Shown: positions 9,675 to 34,538 of the stretch, one piece after another
Position numbering within the stretch: position 1 is the stretch's first letter
Layout of the letters: each line of letters opens with the position of its first letter
Source: a bacterium
GTDB taxonomy: Bacteria; Zhuqueibacterota; Zhuqueibacteria; Residuimicrobiales; Oceaniaggregativiventaceae
Length of the DNA stretch: 64,000 nucleotides
Direction of reading: 5' to 3'
Assembly: GCA_029565675.1 (NCBI GenBank)
Contig: JAKQNP010000002.1
Location: forward strand, 186,001 to 250,000
The notes under the pieces: generated by a model
The model's input: only the letters and a program-made list of their open reading frames with translations
The model's database searches: none
Told to the model about the DNA's origin: nothing
Program-made: the position numbers and the translations under genes

Positions 9675-9708
9675 CATTAAGCGCGGCCGGAACTTGTCGC
9701 GCTTAATG
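9675..9708 (-). promoter_or_regulatory. 11-bp inverted repeat at the argD stop / argD-argA junction
   Basis: CATTAAGCGCG at 9675-9685 and CGCGCTTAATG at 9698-9708 are perfect inverted copies separated by 12 nt. They cover the last argD codons and its TAA stop. There is no T-run on the minus strand, so this is not a classical terminator. It could stabilise the upstream mRNA, act as a processing site, or reduce readthrough into argA. Confidence 0.5.
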
Positions 9709-10882
9709 CAGAGGCAAATATTTCGATCGCGCGGTCGATTTCCTGTCGAGTAACGACCAATGGCGGCAGAAATCGCAGGGTTTGTTCTCCGGCACGGCAG
9801 AGCAACAGCCCCCTGGATTGACAGGCTTTTAGCATGGTTTTGGTTTCGATTGCGACATCAACTCCGATCATCAGTCCACGGCCGCGAACTGCGGTTAGGG
9901 CGGAGTTGCGGGACTGCAACTCTTGCAGCTGCTGCAACAGATAATAGCCCATCTCCCGCACGTGTGCAATAAATGCAGGGCGGGAAATTTTATCGATCAC
10001 CACCTGAGCTACGCTGCAGGTGAGAGGCCCGCCGCCAAACGTTGTTCCGTGATTGCCTACTTGCATGACTTGCGCGACATCCTCATTCATGAGAATGGCA
10101 CCCAGCGGCAGTCCGCCGGCCAGAGGTTTTGCCAAAACAACGATATCTGGCCTGATGCCATAATATTCATGTGCCAGAAATGAACCGGTGCGGCTCAGGC
10201 CGCATTGGATTTCATCGAGAAGCAGAAGGCAGTGGTTCTGCTGGCACAACTCGTACACCGAACTCATGAATTCACGATCAGCAGAATAGATTCCCCCCTC
10301 GCCCTGAATGGGTTCGATCAATACTGCACAGGTTTGCGAGGTCATCTGCTCGCGCAGGGATGCAATGTCGTTAAAGCGGGCAAAGCGAAAACCCGGCAAC
10401 ATCGGACCAAAATCCTGCTGAAATTTTGGCTGGCCAGTCGCTGATAAGGATCCATAGGTTCGACCATGAAAAGAGTGGTCAAAAGCAACGATTTCCCAGG
10501 CTGATTCGCCCTTGTGGTGGTGGCCCCACTTGCGGGCGATTTTAATTGCGCCTTCAACTGCCTCGGTGCCGGTATTCGAAAAAAAGACCCGATCGGCAAA
10601 GGTCAATTCGACCAACCGTCGGGCCAGTAAAACTTGCGGCTCTGTGTAAAAGAGGTTGCTGCAGTGCCACAGTTTGGCCGCTTGTTGCGCCAGCGCTGCA
10701 ATCAGGTCGCTGTCGCCGTAGCCGAGGGCATTGACGGCAATGCCGGCGACAAAGTCCAAATACGCATTGCCCTCGCTGTCGTAGAGGTAACAACCCTGGC
10801 CGTGATCGATGACGAAATCTGGCCGGCTGTAGGTCTGCAACAGAACCGATTTTTCCAGATCGATGAGCTCTTTGGTGTTCAT
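9677..10882 (-). CDS. argD: Acetylornithine aminotransferase
   Basis: A PLP-dependent class III aminotransferase of 401 residues that interconverts N-acetylglutamate semialdehyde and N-acetylornithine using glutamate. Recognisable motifs are DHGQGCYLYDSEGNAYLDF at the N-terminus, FFSNTGTEAVEGAIKIARK, FDHSFHGRTYGSLSATG, the ALLLLDEIQ-type aspartate motif (LLLLDEIQCGLSRTG) and VVLAKPLAGGLPLGAIL with the Schiff-base lysine. It lies 82 bp after argB and before argA in the operon. Paralogues such as succinylornithine or GABA aminotransferase are the only realistic alternatives, and the arg context argues against them. Confidence 0.95.
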   Translation of the reverse strand: MNTKELIDLEKSVLLQTYSRPDFVIDHGQGCYLYDSEGNAYLDFVAGIAVNALGYGDSDLIAALAQQAAKLWHCSNLFYTEPQVLLARRLVELTFADRVFFSNTGTEAVEGAIKIARKWGHHHKGESAWEIVAFDHSFHGRTYGSLSATGQPKFQQDFGPMLPGFRFARFNDIASLREQMTSQTCAVLIEPIQGEGGIYSADREFMSSVYELCQQNHCLLLLDEIQCGLSRTGSFLAHEYYGIRPDIVVLAKPLAGGLPLGAILMNEDVAQVMQVGNHGTTFGGGPLTCSVAQVVIDKISRPAFIAHVREMGYYLLQQLQELQSRNSALTAVRGRGLMIGVDVAIETKTMLKACQSRGLLLCRAGEQTLRFLPPLVVTRQEIDRAIEIFASALSATSSGRA

Positions 10883-10964
10883 GGCTGTCTTTCTAACTGT
10901 ATCCGGGTTTTAGGTTGGTCATCCCTCGGCTTGGCCATTGGGATGGGATTTGTGGTCATGGCGA

Positions 10965-11747
10965 TCATTGTTTGTAAAGCAGGGTCCCATGAGTTGTTTT
11001 GTGATTGAGTGTGTTTACCAGGGTTTGGTCATCCTGCCAACAGGTGATATGTACGCGAGAAACGCCGCCGTCCAGGGCGCGGAATACCGATTCCATCTTG
11101 GCAATCATCCCATCGCGGATCTGGCCTGTGGCGATCAGGTTTTGTGCCTCGCCGATGGTCAAAGAAGATACAAGACGATCTCCGGCACGCACACCTGGAA
11201 CATCGGTAAAATAGATCAGATCTGAAGAGCCCATTCCCACGGCGAGCGCTGCGGCGGCGCTGTCAGCATTGACATTGTAACTGTTGCCATTTTCATCTGC
11301 TGAAATCGGCGAAACCACCGGTATCACACCCTCGTCCAGCAGAGTGACGAGCGGTTCGGGGAAAACACTTTCGATTTCGCCGACATAACCCAGGCTTTGG
11401 CCGTTGCGCAGCATGGGTCGCACTCTGAGCAAACCTTGTGTACGGCCGGAAAGACCACGACAGGCAAGCCCGTTTTGCTGAAGCTGGTCGACGATGCGCT
11501 GGTTGACCTCGGTCGACAGCACCCTTTCGACGATGGCCATATCCTCTTTGGATGTCACACGGTAGCCGTCGATGAACTGCGGTTGTCGGTGTGCATCGCG
11601 CAGTGCTTGAGAGATATCCGCTCCTCCGCCATGCACGATGATCAGGCTGTGGTTGGATAACTTTTTTATGCTTCTTGCCAGAGAAGCATAGCCATCTGAA
11701 CTCTCAAACGCACGTCCTCCGAGTTTGAGCAAGAGAGTCGATTTCAT
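10965..11747 (-). CDS. argB: Acetylglutamate kinase
   Basis: An amino-acid kinase family protein of 260 residues that phosphorylates N-acetylglutamate with ATP, the usual control point of arginine synthesis. It shows LLLKLGGRAF at the N-terminus, SLIIVHGGGADIS, the NVNADSAAAALA motif and LIYFTDVPGV. Its ATG overlaps the argC TGA as ATGA, indicating translational coupling. Allosteric behaviour cannot be judged from sequence alone; no long N-terminal helix of the hexameric arginine-inhibited type is obvious, which hints at an arginine-insensitive form. Confidence 0.95.
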   Translation of the reverse strand: MKSTLLLKLGGRAFESSDGYASLARSIKKLSNHSLIIVHGGGADISQALRDAHRQPQFIDGYRVTSKEDMAIVERVLSTEVNQRIVDQLQQNGLACRGLSGRTQGLLRVRPMLRNGQSLGYVGEIESVFPEPLVTLLDEGVIPVVSPISADENGNSYNVNADSAAAALAVGMGSSDLIYFTDVPGVRAGDRLVSSLTIGEAQNLIATGQIRDGMIAKMESVFRALDGGVSRVHITCWQDDQTLVNTLNHKTTHGTLLYKQ

Positions 11748-12772
11748 CCCAACAATCCCGTGGTTTCGTTAAATCCCAGCATGATGTTAAAATTTTGCAA
11801 AGCCTGTCCCGCCGCCCCTTTGCCCAAATTGTCGATTGCCGAAAACAATACAGCCATACCGGTTTCTTGATCTCGATAGGCAGAAAGCATGCACAGGTTG
11901 CTGTGCTGGACCGCCCTTGTGGCTGGCAATCCTTCATCCAGAACTCTAATAAACGGCTCATCGCGATAGACTTTGTGCAGATGAGCGACAAGATCCGAGG
12001 TGTCTGCATCCCGGTTGAGTTTAAAATAGACCGTTGCATAGAGCCCGCGCCCCATCGGCACCAGATGCGGTGTGAACAAAATTTGCACTCCCTGGCTGGC
12101 CTGCAACGCTGCCTGGGTTTCGATTTCACCGACGTGGCGGTGTTGGCGTCCCGGTTTATAGGCCGCAACGCTCTCGTGGGACTCAAAAAAGTGGGTGGTT
12201 CGGGTCGGCGATTTGCCGGCCCCTGAGATGCCTGACTTGGCGTCGGCAATGATCGGGTTGTTGCAGTCCACCCAGTCGGCCTGTAAAAAGGGGAGAAGTG
12301 CCAACAGGATGCTGGTCGGGTAACAGCCGGGATTGCCGATGATCGCGGCATTGCGGATTTGTTCCCGGTTCCATTCCGGCAGACCATAGACCGCATGCGG
12401 CAAGAGATCGGCGGCGTCATGCGGCTGTTGATACCATTGCTGATAATCGCTTTGCTTGGCGAAACGAAAGTCCGCCCCGAGATCGATCAGGCGTTCATGA
12501 CGGTTGTAACGGATCCTGGCAATTCGCGCGGATTCGCCTGCCGGCAGGCACAAAAAAACCAGATCCGCTTCCATTTCCTGTGCTTGGGCAGCAGTAACCA
12601 GCTCGATAGATGCCCATTTTTGCAGCCGCGGATAAACGGCGCCCAAGCGGATGCCGTTCTCGCGTTCCGATGTGGCAAAGACCACCTCGATCCCTTCATG
12701 TCGCTCCGCCAGCACCAAGAGCTCTTCGCCGGTATATCCAGTGGCTCCGTATATTCCGATTCGGCAAATCAC
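11744..12772 (-). CDS. argC: N-acetyl-gamma-glutamyl-phosphate reductase
   Basis: An NADPH-dependent reductase of 342 residues that makes N-acetylglutamate semialdehyde. The N-terminal Rossmann motif reads RIGIYGATGYTGEELL and the active-site segment reads IGNPGCYPTSILLALLPF, with the catalytic cysteine. Its stop overlaps the argB start (ATGA), and it begins 8 bp after proC, so all three are tightly coupled. Length and motifs match the canonical type 1 enzyme. Confidence 0.95.
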   Translation of the reverse strand: MICRIGIYGATGYTGEELLVLAERHEGIEVVFATSERENGIRLGAVYPRLQKWASIELVTAAQAQEMEADLVFLCLPAGESARIARIRYNRHERLIDLGADFRFAKQSDYQQWYQQPHDAADLLPHAVYGLPEWNREQIRNAAIIGNPGCYPTSILLALLPFLQADWVDCNNPIIADAKSGISGAGKSPTRTTHFFESHESVAAYKPGRQHRHVGEIETQAALQASQGVQILFTPHLVPMGRGLYATVYFKLNRDADTSDLVAHLHKVYRDEPFIRVLDEGLPATRAVQHSNLCMLSAYRDQETGMAVLFSAIDNLGKGAAGQALQNFNIMLGFNETTGLLG

Positions 12773-12780
12773 AGCTTCTC

Positions 12781-13620
12781 CTATTCCAGGCCATTCTCTT
12801 GTTTTAGCAGTTCGCTGAGTTCTTTTGACCGGCGTGTTGCAGTCTCCACAGCGCGGATCAACATGGGTCGCAAGCCGCTGGCTTCCAACTCCTTGATCGC
12901 GGCTATGGCGGTTCCTCCAGGGGTGGTGACTTGATCGCGCAAAACTGCCGGATGGATGCGGGTTTCCTGAACCAGGCGTGCGGATCCGAGAACCGTCTGG
13001 GAAGCCAGGCGAGTCGCTACATCGCGCGGCAAGCCCATCAAAACACCACCGTCGCTCAGTGCCTCGATGATCATATAGATATACGAAGGTCCGCTGCCGC
13101 TAAGTCCGGTGACCACATCCATTTGCGTTTCCGCCACCACTTCAACTTGTCCAATCGATTGAAAGATCCGCGTGGCGATCAAACGGTGTTCCTCCTGGGC
13201 GAATTTTCCCATACAGATTGCAGTTGCTGCCGTCTGAACCACGGCTGGAATGTTGGGCATGGCGCGGACAACGGGATTTTTACCGGTCAGGGCATAGGTG
13301 ATCGTATCGGTGGTAATTCCGGCTAAAATGGAAATCACCAGCTGCTCTCCTCGAATGATCCCTTTGAGTTGTGCCAGCACCTCGCTGATGGTCTGCGGTT
13401 TGACACACAACAGGATCACGTCGGCATCCTGGGCAGCCTGGCGGTTGTCCAGGGAGGTGCGGATTTTCCATTTGTTTTGCAAGTCTTGCAGCCGTTCGGG
13501 TCTGATGTCGGTGGCGATGATGTTGGCAGGATCGGTCAATTTAGCCGTCAACAATCCGCCGAGCAGTGCTTCTCCCATGTTGCCGGCGCCTATAAACGCA
13601 ATTTTTTTATTGAAAAGCAC
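12781..13620 (-). CDS. proC: Pyrroline-5-carboxylate reductase
   Basis: A 279-residue reductase that converts pyrroline-5-carboxylate to proline with NAD(P)H. The N-terminal nucleotide-binding motif is IAFIGAGNMGEALLGGLL, the middle carries VVRAMPNIPA and a VTGLSGSGPSY segment, and the C-terminal dimer domain includes DQVTTPGGTAIAAIKELE. It sits between argJ and argC. This places proline synthesis inside the arginine block and suggests joint control of glutamate-family amino acids. Confidence 0.95.
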   Translation of the reverse strand: MLFNKKIAFIGAGNMGEALLGGLLTAKLTDPANIIATDIRPERLQDLQNKWKIRTSLDNRQAAQDADVILLCVKPQTISEVLAQLKGIIRGEQLVISILAGITTDTITYALTGKNPVVRAMPNIPAVVQTAATAICMGKFAQEEHRLIATRIFQSIGQVEVVAETQMDVVTGLSGSGPSYIYMIIEALSDGGVLMGLPRDVATRLASQTVLGSARLVQETRIHPAVLRDQVTTPGGTAIAAIKELEASGLRPMLIRAVETATRRSKELSELLKQENGLE

Positions 13621-13637
13621 AGTACCACTCCAATCGT

Positions 13638-14906
13638 TTACGTATGATATTCCGCGTTGATTCGCACATAATCATAGGACAGGTCGCAGGTGTAGACGCG
13701 AGCCCTGTATTGGCCAATACCAAGGCGCGCCTCGATTTCTACCTCAGCCTCCTGCAACGCTTTTTGCATGGCAATGCGGTCATAATCGATGGCCTGGCCT
13801 TTTTCGGCTACCACGATGCCGGCGAAACGGATTTGAATTTTTTCTGGTTGTAACTGTGCGCCGCTGGCGCCCAGAGCCGAGATGACCCGACCCCAGTTGG
13901 GATCACGGCCAAAGAGAGCGGTTTTGACCAAGAGAGAATTGGCAACTGACCGGGCTGCCCGGTCTGCTTCTTCGGCAGTGGCGGCTTCCTGCACGGTTAC
14001 GGTGATCAGTTTGCTGGCGCCTTCGCCGTCGCGTGCCAATTCTTGTGCCAGCGCAACGGCCACTTGATCCAAAGCGCGCTGAAAAACGCGAAAATTTTCG
14101 TCCTTTTGGCGTATTGCTGGATTGCCGCACTGGTGATTGGCAAGGATAAAGACACAATCGTTCGTGCTTTGCTCGCCATCGACGGTTAAAACATTGAAAC
14201 TTTTGTTGACGCTGTTCTGCAGAGCTTCCCGCAACAGCGTCGGTTCAATGGCACAGTCGGTTGTAAAGACCGCGATCATGGTCGCCAAACGGGGTTGAAT
14301 CATACCGCTGCCTTTGGCCATGGCGCCGATGCGGCAAGACTTGCCATCGATCCGGCATTCGATCGCCATCTGTTTCGGTCTCGTATCTGTGGTCATGATG
14401 GCACGGGCTGCGTCGGGTCCGCCGTTTGGTTGCAAATCGGCAACAGCCCGCTGAATTCCTGCAAGGATCTTTTCCATGGGCAGAAAGTGACCGATGACCC
14501 CGGTGGAGGCGATGAGGGTGTGGTTGATGGGGATATGCAATGCCGCGCTGACAGCTTTCGCCGTCATTTCGGCGTCTTGCCAGCCCCTTGCCCCGGTGCA
14601 GGCGTTCGCATTGCCGCTGTTGATGAGAATCGCTCGCGCCTGCTGGCAAGCGATATGGTTTTCACTCACCGCGATGGGCGCTGCCCGCAGCTTGTTGCAG
14701 GTGAACAGGGCTGCAGCAACAGCGGCGGTCTCGCTGAAGACCAGCGCCATATCCATGCCCTCAGCTTTAAGGCCGCAAGCAACACCGCTGGCTGAAAATC
14801 CGCGCGGTGAGGTGATGCACCCGTTTTCAAGCGCAATGAGCGAAACATCGTCCTCCTGTAGCGCTCCGGTTTCTTCAGTCTGCTGATGGGGTATTGCTGG
14901 AGTCAT
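13638..14906 (-). CDS. argJ: Glutamate N-acetyltransferase / ornithine acetyltransferase
   Basis: A 422-residue ArgJ-family enzyme that transfers the acetyl group from N-acetylornithine to glutamate and may also use acetyl-CoA. ArgJ self-cleaves at a conserved threonine; here the motif is [19 protein letters not shown] with that Thr in place. Other signatures are [36 protein letters not shown] and [13 protein letters not shown]. The start ATG overlaps the leuB stop (ATGA). The N-terminus is about 30 residues longer than usual before the [10 protein letters not shown] start of homology, so a downstream start is possible. Whether it is mono- or bifunctional is not decidable by eye. Confidence 0.93.
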
Positions 14907-15976
14907 ATTTGTTCTCCTTTGATGGTCATGCAGATCAGTTCGCCCATTTCACGGGTGGTGACCGTCGTGGTTCCTGGTGTCGCGATATCCTTGGTACGGT
15001 AGCCTGTTGCCAATACCTTGGCAATTGCCCGATCGATTCGTTCAGCCTCCTGACTGCGGCCCAAACTGTGCTGCAACAGCATTGCACAGGAGGAGATGGT
15101 GGCGATCGGATTGGCACAATTTTTCCCGGCAATATCGGGTGCGGATCCATGTACCGGTTCATATACTGCTGTGAGGTTGCCAATGCTTGCTGACGGCAAC
15201 ATGCCGAGCGAACCGGTCAGCATTGCCGCCTCATCACTGAGGATATCGCCAAAAAGATTGCCGGTGAGAATGACATCGAACTGGCGAGGATCGCGGATCA
15301 GCTGCATCGCCGCATTATCGATATAGAGATGGTTGATCTGGACGTCCGGGTAATCCGCGGCGACCTCTTGCACCACTGACCGCCAGAGCTGTGAAACCTC
15401 CAGCACGTTGGCCTTGTCTACAGAAGTGATTTTGCGGCGCCGCTTTCGGGCCGTTTCGAAAGCGAATCGCGCGACACGCTCGATTTCATGGCGGGTGTAA
15501 ACCATGGTGTTGAAGGCGAGGTTCCCGGTTAAACTCCTGGGTTCACCGAAATAGAGCCCCCCGGTCAACTCGCGGACGATCAGCAAGTCGGTGCCATCGA
15601 CCACCTCGCTTCGCAGAGCGGAAGCGGCCAGGAGGCTGGGATAGATCCGGGCAGGTCGCAGGTTGGCATACAGCTGCAGACTCTGACGCAGTCCTAGAAG
15701 ACCGCGTTCGGGGCGTTTTTCAGCCGGTTGTGTGTCCCAACGCGGGTCTCCGATCGCACCCAGCAGAACGGCATCGCTGCTGCGGCACAACTCCAGCGTG
15801 GACGACGGCAGAGGATCTCCTTGTTCCTGTAACGCTGCACCGCCGATCAACCCCTCAACGAAGTCAAAAGCAAAATCGGATCGTTCCGCTGTCGCTTCTA
15901 ATGCGCGTTTGCCTTCAGCCACGACTTCCGGCCCGATCCCATCTCCAGGCAGCAGGGCAATTTTATAGGTTGTCAT
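14903..15976 (-). CDS. leuB: 3-isopropylmalate dehydrogenase
   Basis: A 357-residue NAD-dependent decarboxylating dehydrogenase of leucine synthesis. It begins [21 protein letters not shown] and carries the [13 protein letters not shown] and [15 protein letters not shown] motifs, a [14 protein letters not shown] metal/substrate loop and [13 protein letters not shown] for NAD binding. It overlaps the leuA end by 14 bp and the argJ start by 4 bp. LeuC and LeuD, which provide its substrate from the LeuA product, are not in this operon or window. Confidence 0.95.
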
Positions 15977-17507
15977 GCTTGGTTTCCGTTGGCTGATGTT
16001 TTGTTTCGTGGCTTAAAATGCGGTTCAGGGCGTTGATGTAAGCCTTGATGCTGGCTTCGACCACATCGGTACTCGCGGCACGTCCGATGGTGTTGCGGCC
16101 ATTTTGCTTTACCCGGACGATCACTTCGCCCATGGCATTTTTGCCTTCGGTTACCGCCTGTAACGAATAGCTCACCAGTTGGACGGGCATTTGCACGATG
16201 CGGTCGATGGCTTTGTAGGCGGCATCTACCGGTCCATCGCCGGCAGATGCTTCCTGTATCACTTTTTCCTCATGGCGCAACCGTACAGTTGCTGAAGGAA
16301 TGGTCTGACTGCCGCTGAGGATGTGAAAATAGTCGAGCTGGTAGATCTCTTGCTGCAGGGCATCCCCGATGACCAGCGCGATCAGATCTTCATCAAAGAC
16401 TTCCTTTTTCTTGTCCGCCAACTCGAGAAAACGGTCATACAGGTGATCGATTTCTGTCTTGTTCAAAGCATAACCCAATTCCTGCAGCCGTTGTTTCAAA
16501 CCGTGCCGACCGGAGTGGCGCCCTAGAACGATGCGACTTGATTCCAAACCCACGTCCTGGGGTTTCATGATCTCGTAAGTCGAAGCATCTTTGATCACTG
16601 CATCCTGGTGTATGCCCGACTCGTGTGCGAATGCATTGCTGCCGACGATGGCTTTATTGGGCTGAACGAGGATACCGGTCAAACTGCTGACGAGACGGCT
16701 GGTGCGAATGATTTCCTCGGTGCGGATTTTGGTGGTTTTTTGGTAAAAATCGCTGCGCGTTTTCAGTGCCATAACCACTTCTTCTAAAGAGGCGTTGCCG
16801 GCACGTTCACCGATGCCGTTGATCGTCACTTCCGCCTGCTGGGCGCCGTTGGCGATGGCCGATAGAGTGTTGGCAACCGCCAGACCGAGATCGTTGTGAC
16901 AATGCACACTGAGGATGATTCTGTCGATATGGGCAACCCGCTTGCGGATCTCTGCGATCAAGCGGCCAAATTCGTCCGGATTGGAATAACCGACAGTGTC
17001 TGGAATGTTGATGACCGTGGCACCGGCAGCGATGGCTGCAGCGATGATGCGAAAGAGGAATTCTTTGCCGGTACGAGCCGAGTCTTCTGGCGAAAATTCG
17101 ATGTCGCTGAAATAGTTTTTCGCCCGCTTTACCCCCTTCACAGCCAGTTCCAGTATTTCGTCTTCGCTTTTTTTAAATTTCTTTTCCAGATGGATTTTTG
17201 AGGTCGCGGCAAATACATGAATGCGCGGTTTCTTTGCTTTTTCCAGCGCTTGTGCTGCACGGTCGATATCGAGATCCACACACCGGGCGAGAGCGGCAAC
17301 GATCGGACCTTTGACCTCTTCGGCAATCAATCGCGTCGCCTCGAATTGCACCTGCGAAGAAACCGGGAACCCTGCTTCGATCACATCGACATTGAGCCGT
17401 GCCAGCTGCTGAGCGATCGTCAATTTGTCGTGAAGGTTCAAACTGGCGCCCGGAGATTGTTCGCCGTCCCGCAAAGTCGTATCGAAAATGTAAATGCGAT
17501 TTTTCAT
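15963..17507 (-). CDS. leuA: 2-isopropylmalate synthase
   Basis: A 514-residue enzyme that condenses acetyl-CoA with 2-ketoisovalerate, the committed step to leucine. The catalytic TIM barrel shows [15 protein letters not shown] and [18 protein letters not shown], and [18 protein letters not shown] is present. The C-terminal part matches the LeuA regulatory domain, where leucine feedback would act. The ATG at 17507 is chosen because an AGGGGGATC ribosome site lies just before it; an upstream in-frame ATG at 17534 would overlap ilvC. Homocitrate or citramalate synthase is less likely given leuB next door. Confidence 0.93.
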
Positions 17508-17520
17508 GTGATCCCCCTGC

Positions 17521-18513
17521 CTATGGTTTGGCAATCCAGCTCATCATCGTGCGCAAATCTTTGCCGACCTGCTCGATTCGCGATTCCTGCATCATGCGGC
17601 GCAAGGCCTTGAACCTGGGCGCTTTCGCCTGGTTTTCGAGGATCCATTCGGTGGCAAACTCACCCGATCGGATTTCTTGCAGAATCTTTTTCATCGCTTG
17701 TTTGCTTTCCTCCCCGACAACGCGCGGACCCCGCGTCAGGCCTCCAAATTCAGCCGTGTCGCTGACCGAGTAGAACATGCGCGACATTCCACCTTCGTAG
17801 ATCAGATCGACGATCAATTTCATCTCATGCAGACATTCAAAGTAGGCGATTTCCGGTTTGTAGCCCGCCTCCACCAGAGTCTCAAAGCCCGATTGTATCA
17901 GTTCCATGATGCCGCCGCATAAAACGGCCTGTTCGCCGAATAGATCGGTTTCAGTTTCCTCCCGAAACGTCGTTTCGATTACCCCGGCCCGGGTCCCGCC
18001 GATGCCCTTGCTGTAGGCCAGGGCGATTTTGTGCGCTTTTCCGCTTGCATCTCGAGAGATGGCGATGAGGTTGGGGACCCCGCGTTGCTCTTTGAATTGG
18101 CGTCTGACCAGATGGCCCGGACCTTTGGGCGCGATCATGATCACGTCCACATCGGCGGGCGGATGGATCTGACCATAGTGGATATTGAAGCCATGCGCAA
18201 AAGCCAGCACTTTGCCGGCTTTCAGCGACGGCAGCACTTCATCCCGATAAACTTGCGGTTGCACCATATCCGGTACGAGCATCATGATCAAATCAGCATT
18301 GGCAGCCGCTTCGGCACAGGTCTGTACCGTCAGTCCATCTGCTTGCGCGGACTGCCAGGAAGGGCTGCCGGCATAAAGGCCGACCACAACCTTTAATCCT
18401 GAATCGTGTAGATTGAGCGCATGGGCATGCCCCTGACTGCCATAGCCAAGAACAGCAATTGTCTTGTCAGCCAGGACGCTGAGATCGGCATCACTATCGT
18501 AATAAACCTTCAT
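17521..18513 (-). CDS. ilvC: Ketol-acid reductoisomerase (class I)
   Basis: A 330-residue short (class I) KARI that isomerises and reduces acetolactate or acetohydroxybutyrate. Motifs are the N-terminal [15 protein letters not shown] nucleotide loop, [13 protein letters not shown], and the C-terminal knotted domain with [33 protein letters not shown] and a [17 protein letters not shown] helix. The ATG at 18513 has a clear AAAGGAG site about 8 bp upstream, so the slightly longer reading from 18534 is not used. It lies 51 bp after ilvN. Confidence 0.96.
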
Positions 18514-18564
18514 GTGGATTCTCCTTTGTTTCATCGGTTGTGAACAGGTTGCGGAATCGGATGC

Positions 18565-19053
18565 TTACATTTTGCCGTTCGAGTCCCGCACCATGGCTAT
18601 CGAACCGGTTCGAGCGATCTCCTGGATGCCGAATGGCTGCAGGGTTTCCAGAAAGGCCTCAATCTTGGGCTCATTGCCAGTCAATTCCAATGTCATTGAA
18701 CGGTTGCTGATGTCGACAACTTTGGCGCGAAAAATCTGCACCAGCTGTGAAATGTCACCTCGTTTCGCAGGAGGACAATAGACCTTGACCAGAACCAATT
18801 CCCGGCCGACAAAGTCGGTGGATGTCACATCGGTGACACGATAGACATCGATCAGCTTGTTCAGCTGTTTGATGACCTGCTCGATTATCCAATCGTCTCC
18901 GCGCACCACCAGGGTCATGTGCGAGGCGGCTTCGGAGTCCATCTTGCCAACACTCAGACTTTCGATGTTAAAGCCGCGGGCGCTGAAAAGACCGGCGATT
19001 CGCGCCAGAACACCGGATTGATTTTCCACCTGCAGATTGATAATGTGTCGCAT
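18565..19053 (-). CDS. ilvN: Acetolactate synthase small (regulatory) subunit
   Basis: A 162-residue regulatory subunit with an N-terminal ACT domain (NLQVENQSGVLARIAGLFSARGFNIESL), which in this family binds valine or another branched amino acid and activates and feedback-controls the catalytic subunit. The C-terminal half matches the second ALS small-subunit domain. Its ATG shares one base with the ilvB TGA (TGATG), a stop-start arrangement expected to give coupled, stoichiometric translation. Confidence 0.95.
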   Translation of the reverse strand: MRHIINLQVENQSGVLARIAGLFSARGFNIESLSVGKMDSEAASHMTLVVRGDDWIIEQVIKQLNKLIDVYRVTDVTSTDFVGRELVLVKVYCPPAKRGDISQLVQIFRAKVVDISNRSMTLELTGNEPKIEAFLETLQPFGIQEIARTGSIAMVRDSNGKM

Positions 19054-20774
19054 CAGGCCATCCCTCTCAACATCTGATGAATGGGTGCGCCGGTCGGCAC
19101 CATCGGATAGACGTTTTCCTCTCTGTCAATGGATATTTCGACGATGACCGGCCCTGGAGTGGTGATGGCAGTCTGCAAAACGTCGGCGACTTGATCTTTG
19201 TGGTCGATCCGAAATCCGTGGGCGCCATAAGCTTCTGCGAGTTTCACGAAATTGGGTACATAAGCGGCGGAACAATCGCCATTGGCCTGTTGGCAATCCG
19301 GCGGACACTGTTTGTTGCGCCGCAAACAGGTTTGCGAAAAACGCCGATCGTAAAAGATCGATTGCCACTGGCGAACCATGCCGAGAGAATGGTTGTTGAG
19401 GATGATGATTTTAACCGGCAAATCATAAAGCACCGCCGTTGCCATTTCCTGGATGTTCATTTGAATGCTGCCGTCTCCGGCAATGTCGATCACCAGTTTG
19501 TCCGGCCAGGCAACCTGGGCTCCCAAAGCCGCCGGGAAACCATATCCCATGGTTCCCAGACCTCCGGAGGAAAGGAAAGAACGTGAACTGTGGAAATTGT
19601 AAAATTGCGCCGTCCACATCTGGTTTTGACCGACTTCTGTGCAGATGATCGCTCGATTATCGGTCAGTTTGGCGAGCTGTTCGATGACATACTGCGGCTG
19701 AACCTTGTCGGTTTGTGGATAGCGCAAGGGGTGCCGTTGTTTCCATGTCTTGATCTGTTCCATCCATTGCGGATTTTGCCGCGGTTTAAGCAGGGTATTG
19801 AGCTCCTGAAGGACGGTCCTGATATCGCCGACGATCGGTACTGTCACTTGTACATTCTTGCGAATCGATGTCGGATCGATATCGATATGGATGATCTGCG
19901 CCTGTGGGGCAAATTTATCGACTTTGCCGGTGACGAGGTCGTCAAAACGAACGCCGACAGCGATCAGCAAGTCTGCTTCTTGCACCGCATAGTTGGCATA
20001 TTCGGTTCCGTGCATTCCCAACATCTTTAAGGCATGGCTGTGGGTCTCGGGAAAGATACCCAACCCCATCAGCGATGTGGTGACCGGGGCATCGAGGATC
20101 TCTGACAAAAGGCGGATTTCGTTCTGAGCGTCACTGCTCACCACACCACCGCCGGCAAAAATCACCGGTTTTTTGCTCTGATCGATCAATCCGGCCGCTT
20201 TTTGCAGTTGCTGCATATTGCCTCTAAGAGTCGGCCGATAAGAGCGAAGTTTGATATCGTCGGGATAAGGCTCGTCTGTCTCAGCCTGCTGGATGTCTTT
20301 GGGCAAGTCGATCAGCACTGGCCCTGGCCGGCCGGATCGTGCGATGTAAAAAGCGGATTTGAGCACCTGCGGCAAATCAGCAATGTCTCTGACCAAATAG
20401 TTATGTTTGGTAATCGATCGGGTAATTCCGCAAATATCAACCTCCTGAAAAGCATCATTGCCGATCAACGAGGTCGCTACTTGGCCGGTTAAAACCACCA
20501 AGGGGATTGAATCCATGTGTGCTGTGGCAATGCCAGTGACCAAATTGGTCGCTCCAGGTCCGGATGTCGCTATACACATCCCGACTTTGCCTGACGCGCG
20601 GGCGTAACCATCGGCCGCGTGGACTGCGCCTTGTTCATGTCGCGTGAGATAAAAGGGCAGACCACTGGAATAAATCTCGTCAAAGATATCGAGAACCGTC
20701 CCGCCCGGGTATCCAAAAAGCGCTTTGACGCCTTCTGCCTGCAAAGCTTGAATAACGAGTGCCGCACCTCTCAT
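19053..20774 (-). CDS. ilvB: Acetolactate synthase large (catalytic) subunit with an extra four-Cys loop
   Basis: A 573-residue ThDP/FAD enzyme that makes acetolactate or acetohydroxybutyrate. It shows ALFGYPGGTVLDIFD, the catalytic glutamate region FYLTRHEQGAVHAADGYAR, the FAD region, and the ThDP-Mg motif GDGSIQMN...ILNNHSLGMVRQWQ. Just after YDRRFSQT it carries an insertion with four cysteines spaced C-x6-C-x3-C-x6-C (19272-19328), absent from E. coli-type enzymes, before returning to the normal FVKLAEAYG. It is the first structural gene of the operon and is preceded by an AGGAG-type ribosome site and the leader region. Confidence 0.95.
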   Translation of the reverse strand: MRGAALVIQALQAEGVKALFGYPGGTVLDIFDEIYSSGLPFYLTRHEQGAVHAADGYARASGKVGMCIATSGPGATNLVTGIATAHMDSIPLVVLTGQVATSLIGNDAFQEVDICGITRSITKHNYLVRDIADLPQVLKSAFYIARSGRPGPVLIDLPKDIQQAETDEPYPDDIKLRSYRPTLRGNMQQLQKAAGLIDQSKKPVIFAGGGVVSSDAQNEIRLLSEILDAPVTTSLMGLGIFPETHSHALKMLGMHGTEYANYAVQEADLLIAVGVRFDDLVTGKVDKFAPQAQIIHIDIDPTSIRKNVQVTVPIVGDIRTVLQELNTLLKPRQNPQWMEQIKTWKQRHPLRYPQTDKVQPQYVIEQLAKLTDNRAIICTEVGQNQMWTAQFYNFHSSRSFLSSGGLGTMGYGFPAALGAQVAWPDKLVIDIAGDGSIQMNIQEMATAVLYDLPVKIIILNNHSLGMVRQWQSIFYDRRFSQTCLRRNKQCPPDCQQANGDCSAAYVPNFVKLAEAYGAHGFRIDHKDQVADVLQTAITTPGPVIVEISIDREENVYPMVPTGAPIHQMLRGMA

Positions 20775-20965
20775 ATGCCAATCTCCTCGGCGTTACCGAA
20801 AGATGTCTGATGACTACACAACAATGGCCATTGCCTGCAGCTGCATCGATGCAAGAGATCAACCCAAAAAATTTGTCAGCGCGGATAAAAAAAAGAGTGA
20901 AAATCAGAGTGGGGACCTCATGCAGCGAAACGCCTAACGGCGCGGTCGCAACAGGAGGCCTAGAA
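20775..20965 (-). promoter_or_regulatory. ilvB leader RNA with hairpin over the leader-peptide stop and a downstream U-tract
   Basis: Read on the minus strand, GCGA-ccg-CGCC-gtta-GGCG-tt-TCGC forms a nested stem covering the last codons and stop of the leader peptide (about 20928-20951). About 30 nt further on is a run of eight T residues (rc of 20887-20894), then ilvB follows after another 110 nt. The stem and the T-run are not adjacent, so this is not a simple terminator. A competing structure that depends on ribosome position is an inference. Confidence 0.45.
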
Positions 20966-21038
20966 TCGCGAGAGCCAGTTCGCTATGGAGCAACCCATAG
21001 CGGCGTAAATGCCGGTGGCGGTAAAGGAGCGCAGTCAT
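20934..21038 (-). CDS. Putative leucine-rich leader peptide of the ilv-leu-arg operon
   Basis: A 34-codon frame with ATG at 21038-21036 and TAG at 20936-20934, lying 160 bp upstream of ilvB on the same strand. Eleven of 34 residues are leucine, including LLL just before a terminal RPRR. This composition fits ribosome-mediated attenuation by leucyl-tRNA supply. The 3' end of the frame overlaps a nested RNA hairpin. The ribosome site is weak (GGGCGG-like). No similarity search was possible, so the call rests on position, composition and structure. Confidence 0.6.
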   Translation of the reverse strand: MTALLYRHRHLRRYGLLHSELALAILGLLLRPRR

Positions 21039-21303
21039 GGGAATATCCGCCCTTTGCGCATTGCGCGAAGAAAAGTTGATGCCGTTGTTCAGCGGTCTGG
21101 CCATTTGCGCTCTTTGTTTTGGATCTAAAATAAAGAAATTCTTCGATGATTGATACCTGTACCATGCGACGGTTGTTGCAGAAATGGACAGGACCTCCAA
21201 AATCTTCCGCTTTTCCTTCACCCTTCCGATCACCAATGGAATCCATCGCCACAATACGCCGACGTCGCTGCACTGCCTTTCGGAAATGATCGCATTAAGG
21301 CTA

Positions 21304-21331
21304 AATATAGTGTATTAATTAATAAAGTCAA
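21304..21331 (-). promoter_or_regulatory. Sigma-70-type promoter for the ilv-leu-arg operon
   Basis: On the minus strand, TTGACT (21331-21326) and TATATT (21309-21304) are separated by 16 bp in a strongly AT-rich block. Both hexamers match consensus at five of six positions. Transcription would start near 21297, giving a leader of about 520 nt before ilvB that contains the Leu-rich peptide. Confidence 0.65.
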
Positions 21332-34170: not shown

Positions 34171-34538
34171 GCCAGAGCAGGTCAGACGATCGCGTTCCGT
34201 TGCCAAACGGAATGAGGAAAGTCCGAACTCCACAGGGCAGGATGGTCCGTAACACGGACTCGTTGTGAAACGGGGAAAGTGCCACAGAAAGCAAACATTC
34301 CGCTGTTCAGCGGATTAAGGTGAAAGGGCGAGGTAAGAGCTCACCGCCTTGTTGGTGACAACAAGGGCATGGCAAACCCCATCCGGAGCAAGACCAAATA
34401 AAAGGGAAGAGGCGGCCCGTCTCGTTTGACCCTTGGGTAGGTCGCTCGAGGTCGATGGCAACGTCGATCCCAGATAGATGATCGTCGGTTCCGCATTGCG
34501 GAACAACAGAATTCGGCTTATCGACCTGCTCTGGTTAG
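34171..34538 (+). ncRNA. rnpB: RNase P RNA, class A
   Basis: The catalytic RNA for tRNA 5' maturation. Conserved cores are visible: GAGGAAAGTCCGAACTCCAC with CAGGGCA (near 34210-34245), AGTGCCACAGAAA (34279-34291), and GGTGAAAGGGCGAGGTAAGAG (34319-34339). The P1 helix is formed by CCAGAGCAGGTC (34172-34183) and GACCTGCTCTGG (34523-34534), a perfect 12-bp match, followed by a run of nine T residues that can terminate transcription. Ends are set by P1 and are approximate by a few bases. Confidence 0.97.

Follow-up and report, generated by a model that had tools for sequence, protein, structure and literature searches.

The ilvBNC-leuAB operon on the minus strand of the 64,000-nucleotide stretch of DNA analysed here (the window) is preceded by a short leader ORF dominated by branched-chain amino acid codons, the end of which supplies the first of three RNA strands (A, B and C) that are conserved across an order of uncultured KSB1 bacteria. 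Strand B can pair with either A or C, and we consider it highly probable, from sequence comparison, that the ribosome translating the leader works this switch in response to branched-chain amino acids. The fuller explanation, namely a ribosome-mediated attenuator that dispenses with an intrinsic terminator and has an inferred Rho-dependent output, is one that we favor with reserve. The elements of the locus are:

20934..21038, minus strand: Leu-rich leader ORF, from ATG at 21038 to TAG at 20934, 34 codons plus stop
21039..21104, minus strand: candidate 5' extension of the leader ORF, an open frame whose sequence is hardly conserved relative to the congener
20948..20960, minus strand: strand A, GGCCTCCTGTTGC, within the last Leu codons; pairs with B
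20911..20928, minus strand: strand B, TCGCTGCATGAGGTCCCC, directly 3' of the stop; pairs with A or C
20863..20910, minus strand: B-C linker, G-poor, containing a T8 tract (20887-20894)
20845..20862, minus strand: strand C, TTGATCTCTTGCATCGAT, the covarying partner of B
21304..21331, minus strand: promoter-like TTGACT-16-TATATT, matching 10 of 12 consensus positions, predicted from sequence
19053..20774, minus strand: ilvB, acetolactate synthase large subunit (NCBIfam TIGR00118, 837 bits), first gene of the operon
14903..19053, minus strand: ilvN, ilvC, leuA and leuB (NCBIfam matches), in the same order in relatives
9677-14906, minus strand: argJ-proC-argC-argB-argD, following ilvBNC-leuAB almost without gaps

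A branched-chain amino acid-rich leader ORF is conserved before ilvB

The 34-codon ORF encodes MTALLYRHRHLRRYGLLHSELALAILGLLLRPRR, with 11 Leu residues and LLLRPRR at its C-terminus, and on the minus strand its stop lies 159 nt from the ilvB start at 20774, in agreement with the initial annotation of the window, which had described such a frame about 160 bp before ilvB. Its extent is less definite than that description implied: the 34-codon reading exists, but the frame is open farther 5', where an in-frame ATG at 21104 gives 56 codons. The same length of 56 codons in the window and its congener was discarded as proof of the start because, in the part 5' of the last 26 codon positions, non-synonymous codon differences outnumber synonymous ones by 26 to 4, which is close to what unrelated sequence would give. 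Over the last 26 codon positions, there are 11 synonymous and 6 non-synonymous changes, and the end of the leader frame is therefore under coding constraint.

The order is represented by 22 genomes, 17 of them usable and mostly metagenome assemblies judging by their fragmentation; the remaining five have no matching ilvB or one cut at a contig end. All 17 genomes with the upstream region possess an ORF rich in Ile, Leu and Val before ilvB, so that the frame is conserved in relatives, where the initial annotation had allowed that it might not be. The leaders of the window and its congener draw almost exclusively on Leu, and those of the other members on a mixture of Leu, Ile and Val. Across the 17 leaders these three residues account for 260 of the 425 last-25 codons (61%), as against 23% in IlvB (binomial p ~5e-62), while CTA supplies 40 of 205 Leu codons in the leaders versus 11 of 600 in ilvB (odds ratio 13); in the leu leader of Salmonella, it is CUA that acts as the sensitive control codon (PMC1183508).

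An RNA model of the leader finds a confident match in 17 of the 22 genomes, exactly one in each and always before ilvB, including a genome outside the model-building set (G021, locus L128), whose leader, MYAHSQQNFFNTCAEIDATGALCALRLPVVLLYGSVPGLLLLGLVIINLLLR, has all the parts. Outside the order, the model gives no match at E 0.01 among 60 genomes of the same phylum, and among the 80 nearest named loci no such leader precedes ilvB except in the records of two members of the order. Covariance models of the T-box and other Rfam leader families likewise have no match in the leader region of the window or of 16 relatives. A chance Leu-rich frame with incidental hairpins and no regulatory role is thus hardly credible: although the window leader folded alone is unremarkable (z -1.36) and the ORF start is ambiguous (21038 or 21104), such an origin is already contradicted by the comparison, namely by the presence of the leader in every genome with the region, its codon bias, the synonymous excess in its last codons and the covariation described below. 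Given the unremarkable fold of the window sequence by itself, the evidence for a switch is comparative.

Seven of the 34 codons of the window leader specify Arg, and arg genes lie downstream in the same operon; the leader might sense Arg codons as well. A correspondence between leader Arg content and the arg genes of the operon is suggestive across the order, and was set aside as too few genomes are without arg genes. At L031 (G017:C4:75002-76718) and L144, ilvB and leuA are each split into two frames with the leader intact; in G017, the split may reflect sequencing or assembly error, or decay.

Three strands form mutually exclusive pairings

The core of strand A, CCTCTTGC, is nearly invariant across the order, and the core of strand B, GTGCAAGAGG, situated right after the stop, pairs with A in every leader. 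The conserved part of the A:B stem is CCTCTTGC with GCAAGAGG, and 99% of the A:B cells over all the leaders are standard pairs. Strand C is present in 16 of 17 leaders (15 of 16 plus L128), with L009 as the single leader without a clear one, and begins 33-59 nt after B (about 46 nt; 49 nt in L128). In the window, the pairing energies are -20.8 kcal/mol for A:B and -22.3 kcal/mol for B:C (with B extended to 20932). Since B is common to both, the two pairings are mutually exclusive, and one of the strands lies inside the end of the ORF. When five leaders were folded, B:C was chosen in four and A:B in one, the behavior expected of near-equal competitors.

A:B hardly varies, too little for covariation, because strand A is fixed by its codons. 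In contrast, B:C covaries: cognate pairs average -19.2 kcal/mol versus -15.0 kcal/mol for swapped ones, a value reached by none of 20,000 permutations that ignore kinship. On a fixed alignment, 7 of 500 shuffles reach the B:C covariation score, and 75% of the B:C cells pair, as against at most 49% when the strands are slid. A compensatory example is the GGCTGC of B with the GCAGCC of C in L014 and L015, which elsewhere read GGTGC and GCACC. The initial annotation had placed a nested hairpin at the stop, and its GCGA/TCGC and CGCC/GGCG arms do exist, but only as the species-specific top of the longer A:B stem, the CGCC/GGCG part being missing from the congener; strand C (20862-20845) had escaped it. 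It had also proposed a search for covarying stems upstream of ilvB and for alternative leader structures: the latter are found in A:B and B:C, and covariation is found in B:C but not in the scarcely varying A:B.

We propose that, when charged Leu, Ile and Val tRNAs are plentiful, the ribosome would finish the leader and leave, allowing A:B to form; the C-rich linker would then be free for Rho, and transcription would stop before or early in ilvB. When these tRNAs are scarce, the ribosome would stall on Ile or Leu codons located at A or immediately ahead of it and would thus cover A, so that B:C would pair, closing the linker in a loop and letting transcription continue into ilvBNC-leuAB. Counting against this mechanism are the Ile and Val codons lying far 5' of A, as a ribosome stalled there would leave A unmasked.

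The ilvB leaders lack the intrinsic terminators of the his and trp leaders

A scan for a hairpin with a T-rich tail detects no intrinsic terminator in the 17 ilvB leaders (mean best -4.5 kcal/mol versus -3.3 kcal/mol when shuffled), and the DNA after strand C folds no better than its shuffles (mean z -0.05). A terminator composed of strand C and the DNA downstream was rejected, shuffles being equally good. Under the same scan, leuL, ivbL, ilvL, thrL and trpL of E. coli score -13.4 to -20.1 kcal/mol (mean -18.0), and a terminator of -11.5 to -25.3 kcal/mol is present in every one of 24 leaders tested within the order itself: 16 his leaders (mean -16.5 kcal/mol), a few of which have no more than short His runs, and 8 trp leaders (mean -22.6 kcal/mol). 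Intrinsic terminators are therefore part of attenuation in this lineage. The ilvB leader departs from that pattern, and its operon must be switched off otherwise, perhaps via Rho.

This bears on the initial annotation, which saw in the locus the layout of ribosome-mediated attenuation, with a T8 tract following the hairpin. Attenuation by the leader ribosome is well supported by the Ile/Leu/Val leader, the CTA usage, the exclusive stems and the B:C covariation. However, the classical hairpin and U-tract are found in none of the 17 leaders, though the his and trp leaders have them, and the T8 tract, while present at 20894-20887, is not conserved, follows no terminator and falls within the B-C linker. 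A classical attenuator whose intrinsic terminator escaped the scans, such as an atypical hairpin close to C that has a weak U-tract, could draw on L016 and L018, where a short ACCC/GGGT hairpin near C is followed by T-rich DNA, and on hairpins of -9.9 to -11.4 kcal/mol in L007, L011 and L012. Yet no hairpin is common to the leaders, and the control leaders score far more strongly than the ilvB mean, which makes such a terminator improbable.

All 8 trpE loci for which upstream DNA is available (L155-L162) have a leader ORF containing a Trp run (WWW or WWWW); downstream of each ORF, two hairpins with T-tracts stand in tandem, GCGCCGTG...CACGGCG and GGCGCTGTG...CAGCGCC. Upstream of hisG (L164-L182), leader ORFs with His runs (up to HHHHHHH) are present in most loci, along with intrinsic terminators; the hisG leader of the window's own genome (L165) is MLRNHRHHSWICFDSCAGG, with a terminator of -19.4 kcal/mol.

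Composition of the linker and the predicted output

A C-rich, G-poor composition is typical of Rho-loading sites. Across the order, the B-C linker contains 226 C versus 68 G over 15 leaders. Its mean skew is 0.55, whereas intergenic windows have 0.00; of 481 such windows within the 64-kb stretch, 1.5% reach the linker value. The DNA after strand C is skewed in the opposite direction, and the matching stretch of the his and trp leaders has a skew of 0.01 (147 C, 154 G). The genome encodes Rho (PF07497, 127.2 bits). Thus, the linker composition is consistent with a Rho site in the order (see also PMC6386406 for the composition of such sites), but weakly so in the window itself, whose linker is T-rich with 13 C versus 8 G, a poorer case than the order overall. 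From this composition, Rho-dependent termination would be the likeliest output of the ilvB leader switch, a prediction in which our confidence is evenly balanced. Besides the main rho, the Rho RNA-binding domain is matched again, more weakly (37.1 bits), at G000:C37:3009-3209 on the minus strand, within an open frame of 463 residues.

With sensor and A/B/C switch unchanged, the output may instead be translational, free C pairing with the ilvB start and blocking initiation until B:C frees it. The fourth strand would then be codons 2-8 of ilvB (in many, GGTGCAGAA) or else the ribosome-binding site, and Rho could have a secondary effect on the message left untranslated, for which E. coli toiL-topAI offers a precedent (PMC12121999). 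Such an output requires no terminator. Strand C pairs with positions -6..+27 of ilvB more strongly in cognate than in swapped combinations (-12.2 vs -10.6, p 0.007). It also prefers this segment over other stretches of ilvB (combined p 0.006), which strand A, the control, does not (p 0.87), and to this extent the pairing counts against a Rho output. However, the -6..+27 signal was picked post hoc among eleven stretches, which makes these p-values optimistic. Moreover, the ribosome-binding site alone gives p 0.24-0.31, so that pairing of C with the ilvB Shine-Dalgarno is unsupported as a general rule; the distance from C to the start ranges from 50 to 235 nt; and the GGN-GCN sequence follows from GA residues that IlvB conserves. 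We regard start-blocking as unlikely, though it is the chief rival to Rho.

Control of message stability, through an RNase site in the linker or A:B rather than through termination or translation, would also accord with a long linker unpaired in one state only, and has precedent in one layer of Salmonella speF control (PMC6386406). Nothing specific to RNases was found, however, and we deem this less probable still than a missed terminator.

Relationship of the KSB1 leader to known attenuators

Attenuation of branched-chain amino acid genes by leader peptides is, as a kind, already known. Like the KSB1 leaders, ivbL-ilvBN, ilvL and leuL of E. coli place a leader rich in the regulated amino acids before ilv or leu genes; the leu leaders likewise use the rare Leu codon CUA, and in the ilv and leu attenuators a strand within the ORF competes with a third strand for the second. 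They differ in the strong intrinsic terminators of ivbL, ilvL and leuL (-16.9 to -20.1 kcal/mol in the same scan), which the KSB1 ilvB leaders are without, and in having about as much C as G after the stop, where the latter are C-rich. In E. coli tnaC, the output of the leader peptide depends on Rho and lies immediately past the stop codon (cited in PMC1262725); this leader senses free tryptophan by nascent-peptide arrest and turns a catabolic operon on. The likeness thus lies in joining a leader peptide to a Rho output, a predicted one in the KSB1 ilvB leader, but the tnaC spacer is only mildly C-rich.

The ilvB leaders of the actinobacteria Corynebacterium, Mycobacterium and Streptomyces also have an Ile/Leu/Val-rich ORF before ilvB(N)C, but this precedes or overlaps a terminator hairpin with poly-U, of which none was found in the KSB1 leaders (PMC1262725, PMC13236596, PMC10272879); the two sets have no sequence or Rfam relation. 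In Staphylococcus aureus, a Leu/Ile-rich peptide similarly controls the ilv-leu operon, but there the leader precedes ilvD, and a terminator lies 52 nt beyond its stop (PMC5794164). Along with a case in Listeria (PMC5864092) and leader peptides in Firmicutes generally (PMC2965389), the S. aureus leader shows that the initial annotation overlooked the Firmicutes in calling such attenuation little described outside Proteobacteria and Actinobacteria. The mycobacterial cys leaders are similar to those of KSB1 in that the regulated residue occurs in runs and a terminator hairpin is absent, with Rho suggested by the authors, but no conserved alternative structure is reported for them (PMC1262725), as opposed to the covarying three-strand switch of the KSB1 ilvB leader. 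In Salmonella orf34-speF and E. coli toiL-topAI, the position of the ribosome on the leader ORF alters folding, with Rho termination downstream; these respond to other signals before other genes, and their RNA structure also hides the ribosome-binding site (PMC6386406, PMC12121999).

Because the ilvB and ilvD leaders compared all carry intrinsic terminators, a conserved terminator-less branched-chain amino acid leader with a covarying three-strand switch would be new relative to them; a terminator-based survey of leader peptides itself states that such cases are missed (PMC2965389). We tentatively suggest that this might be a distinct class of attenuator, in which the leader ribosome steers the A:B/B:C switch gating Rho in the linker, with C possibly gripping the first ilvB codons, in an order whose his and trp leaders have intrinsic terminators. 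In the open-access literature searched, no paper joins leader-peptide attenuation with KSB1, and a query for Calditrichaeota returned only papers without that name. An uncultured lineage thereby gains a predicted amino acid-sensing circuit, and ilv, his and trp leader peptides are added to a group for which that literature reported none. The leader also lends itself to a clear-cut test of amino acid attenuation gated by Rho (or at the start), which terminator-based surveys overlook by design.

Setting of the operon

The ilvN-ilvC-leuA-leuB genes adjoin ilvB with no gaps for another notable promoter, and the TTGACT site lies 371 nt from strand A; in the congener, a similar site is 313 nt upstream. 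Relatives (L134-L142 and L144) have an additional LeuA-like gene between leuB and argJ, perhaps a citramalate synthase (26-31% to leuA); the window operon is without it at 14903-14906. Elsewhere in the window, an RNase P RNA of bacterial class A is encoded at 34174-34536 on the plus strand (303.7 bits).
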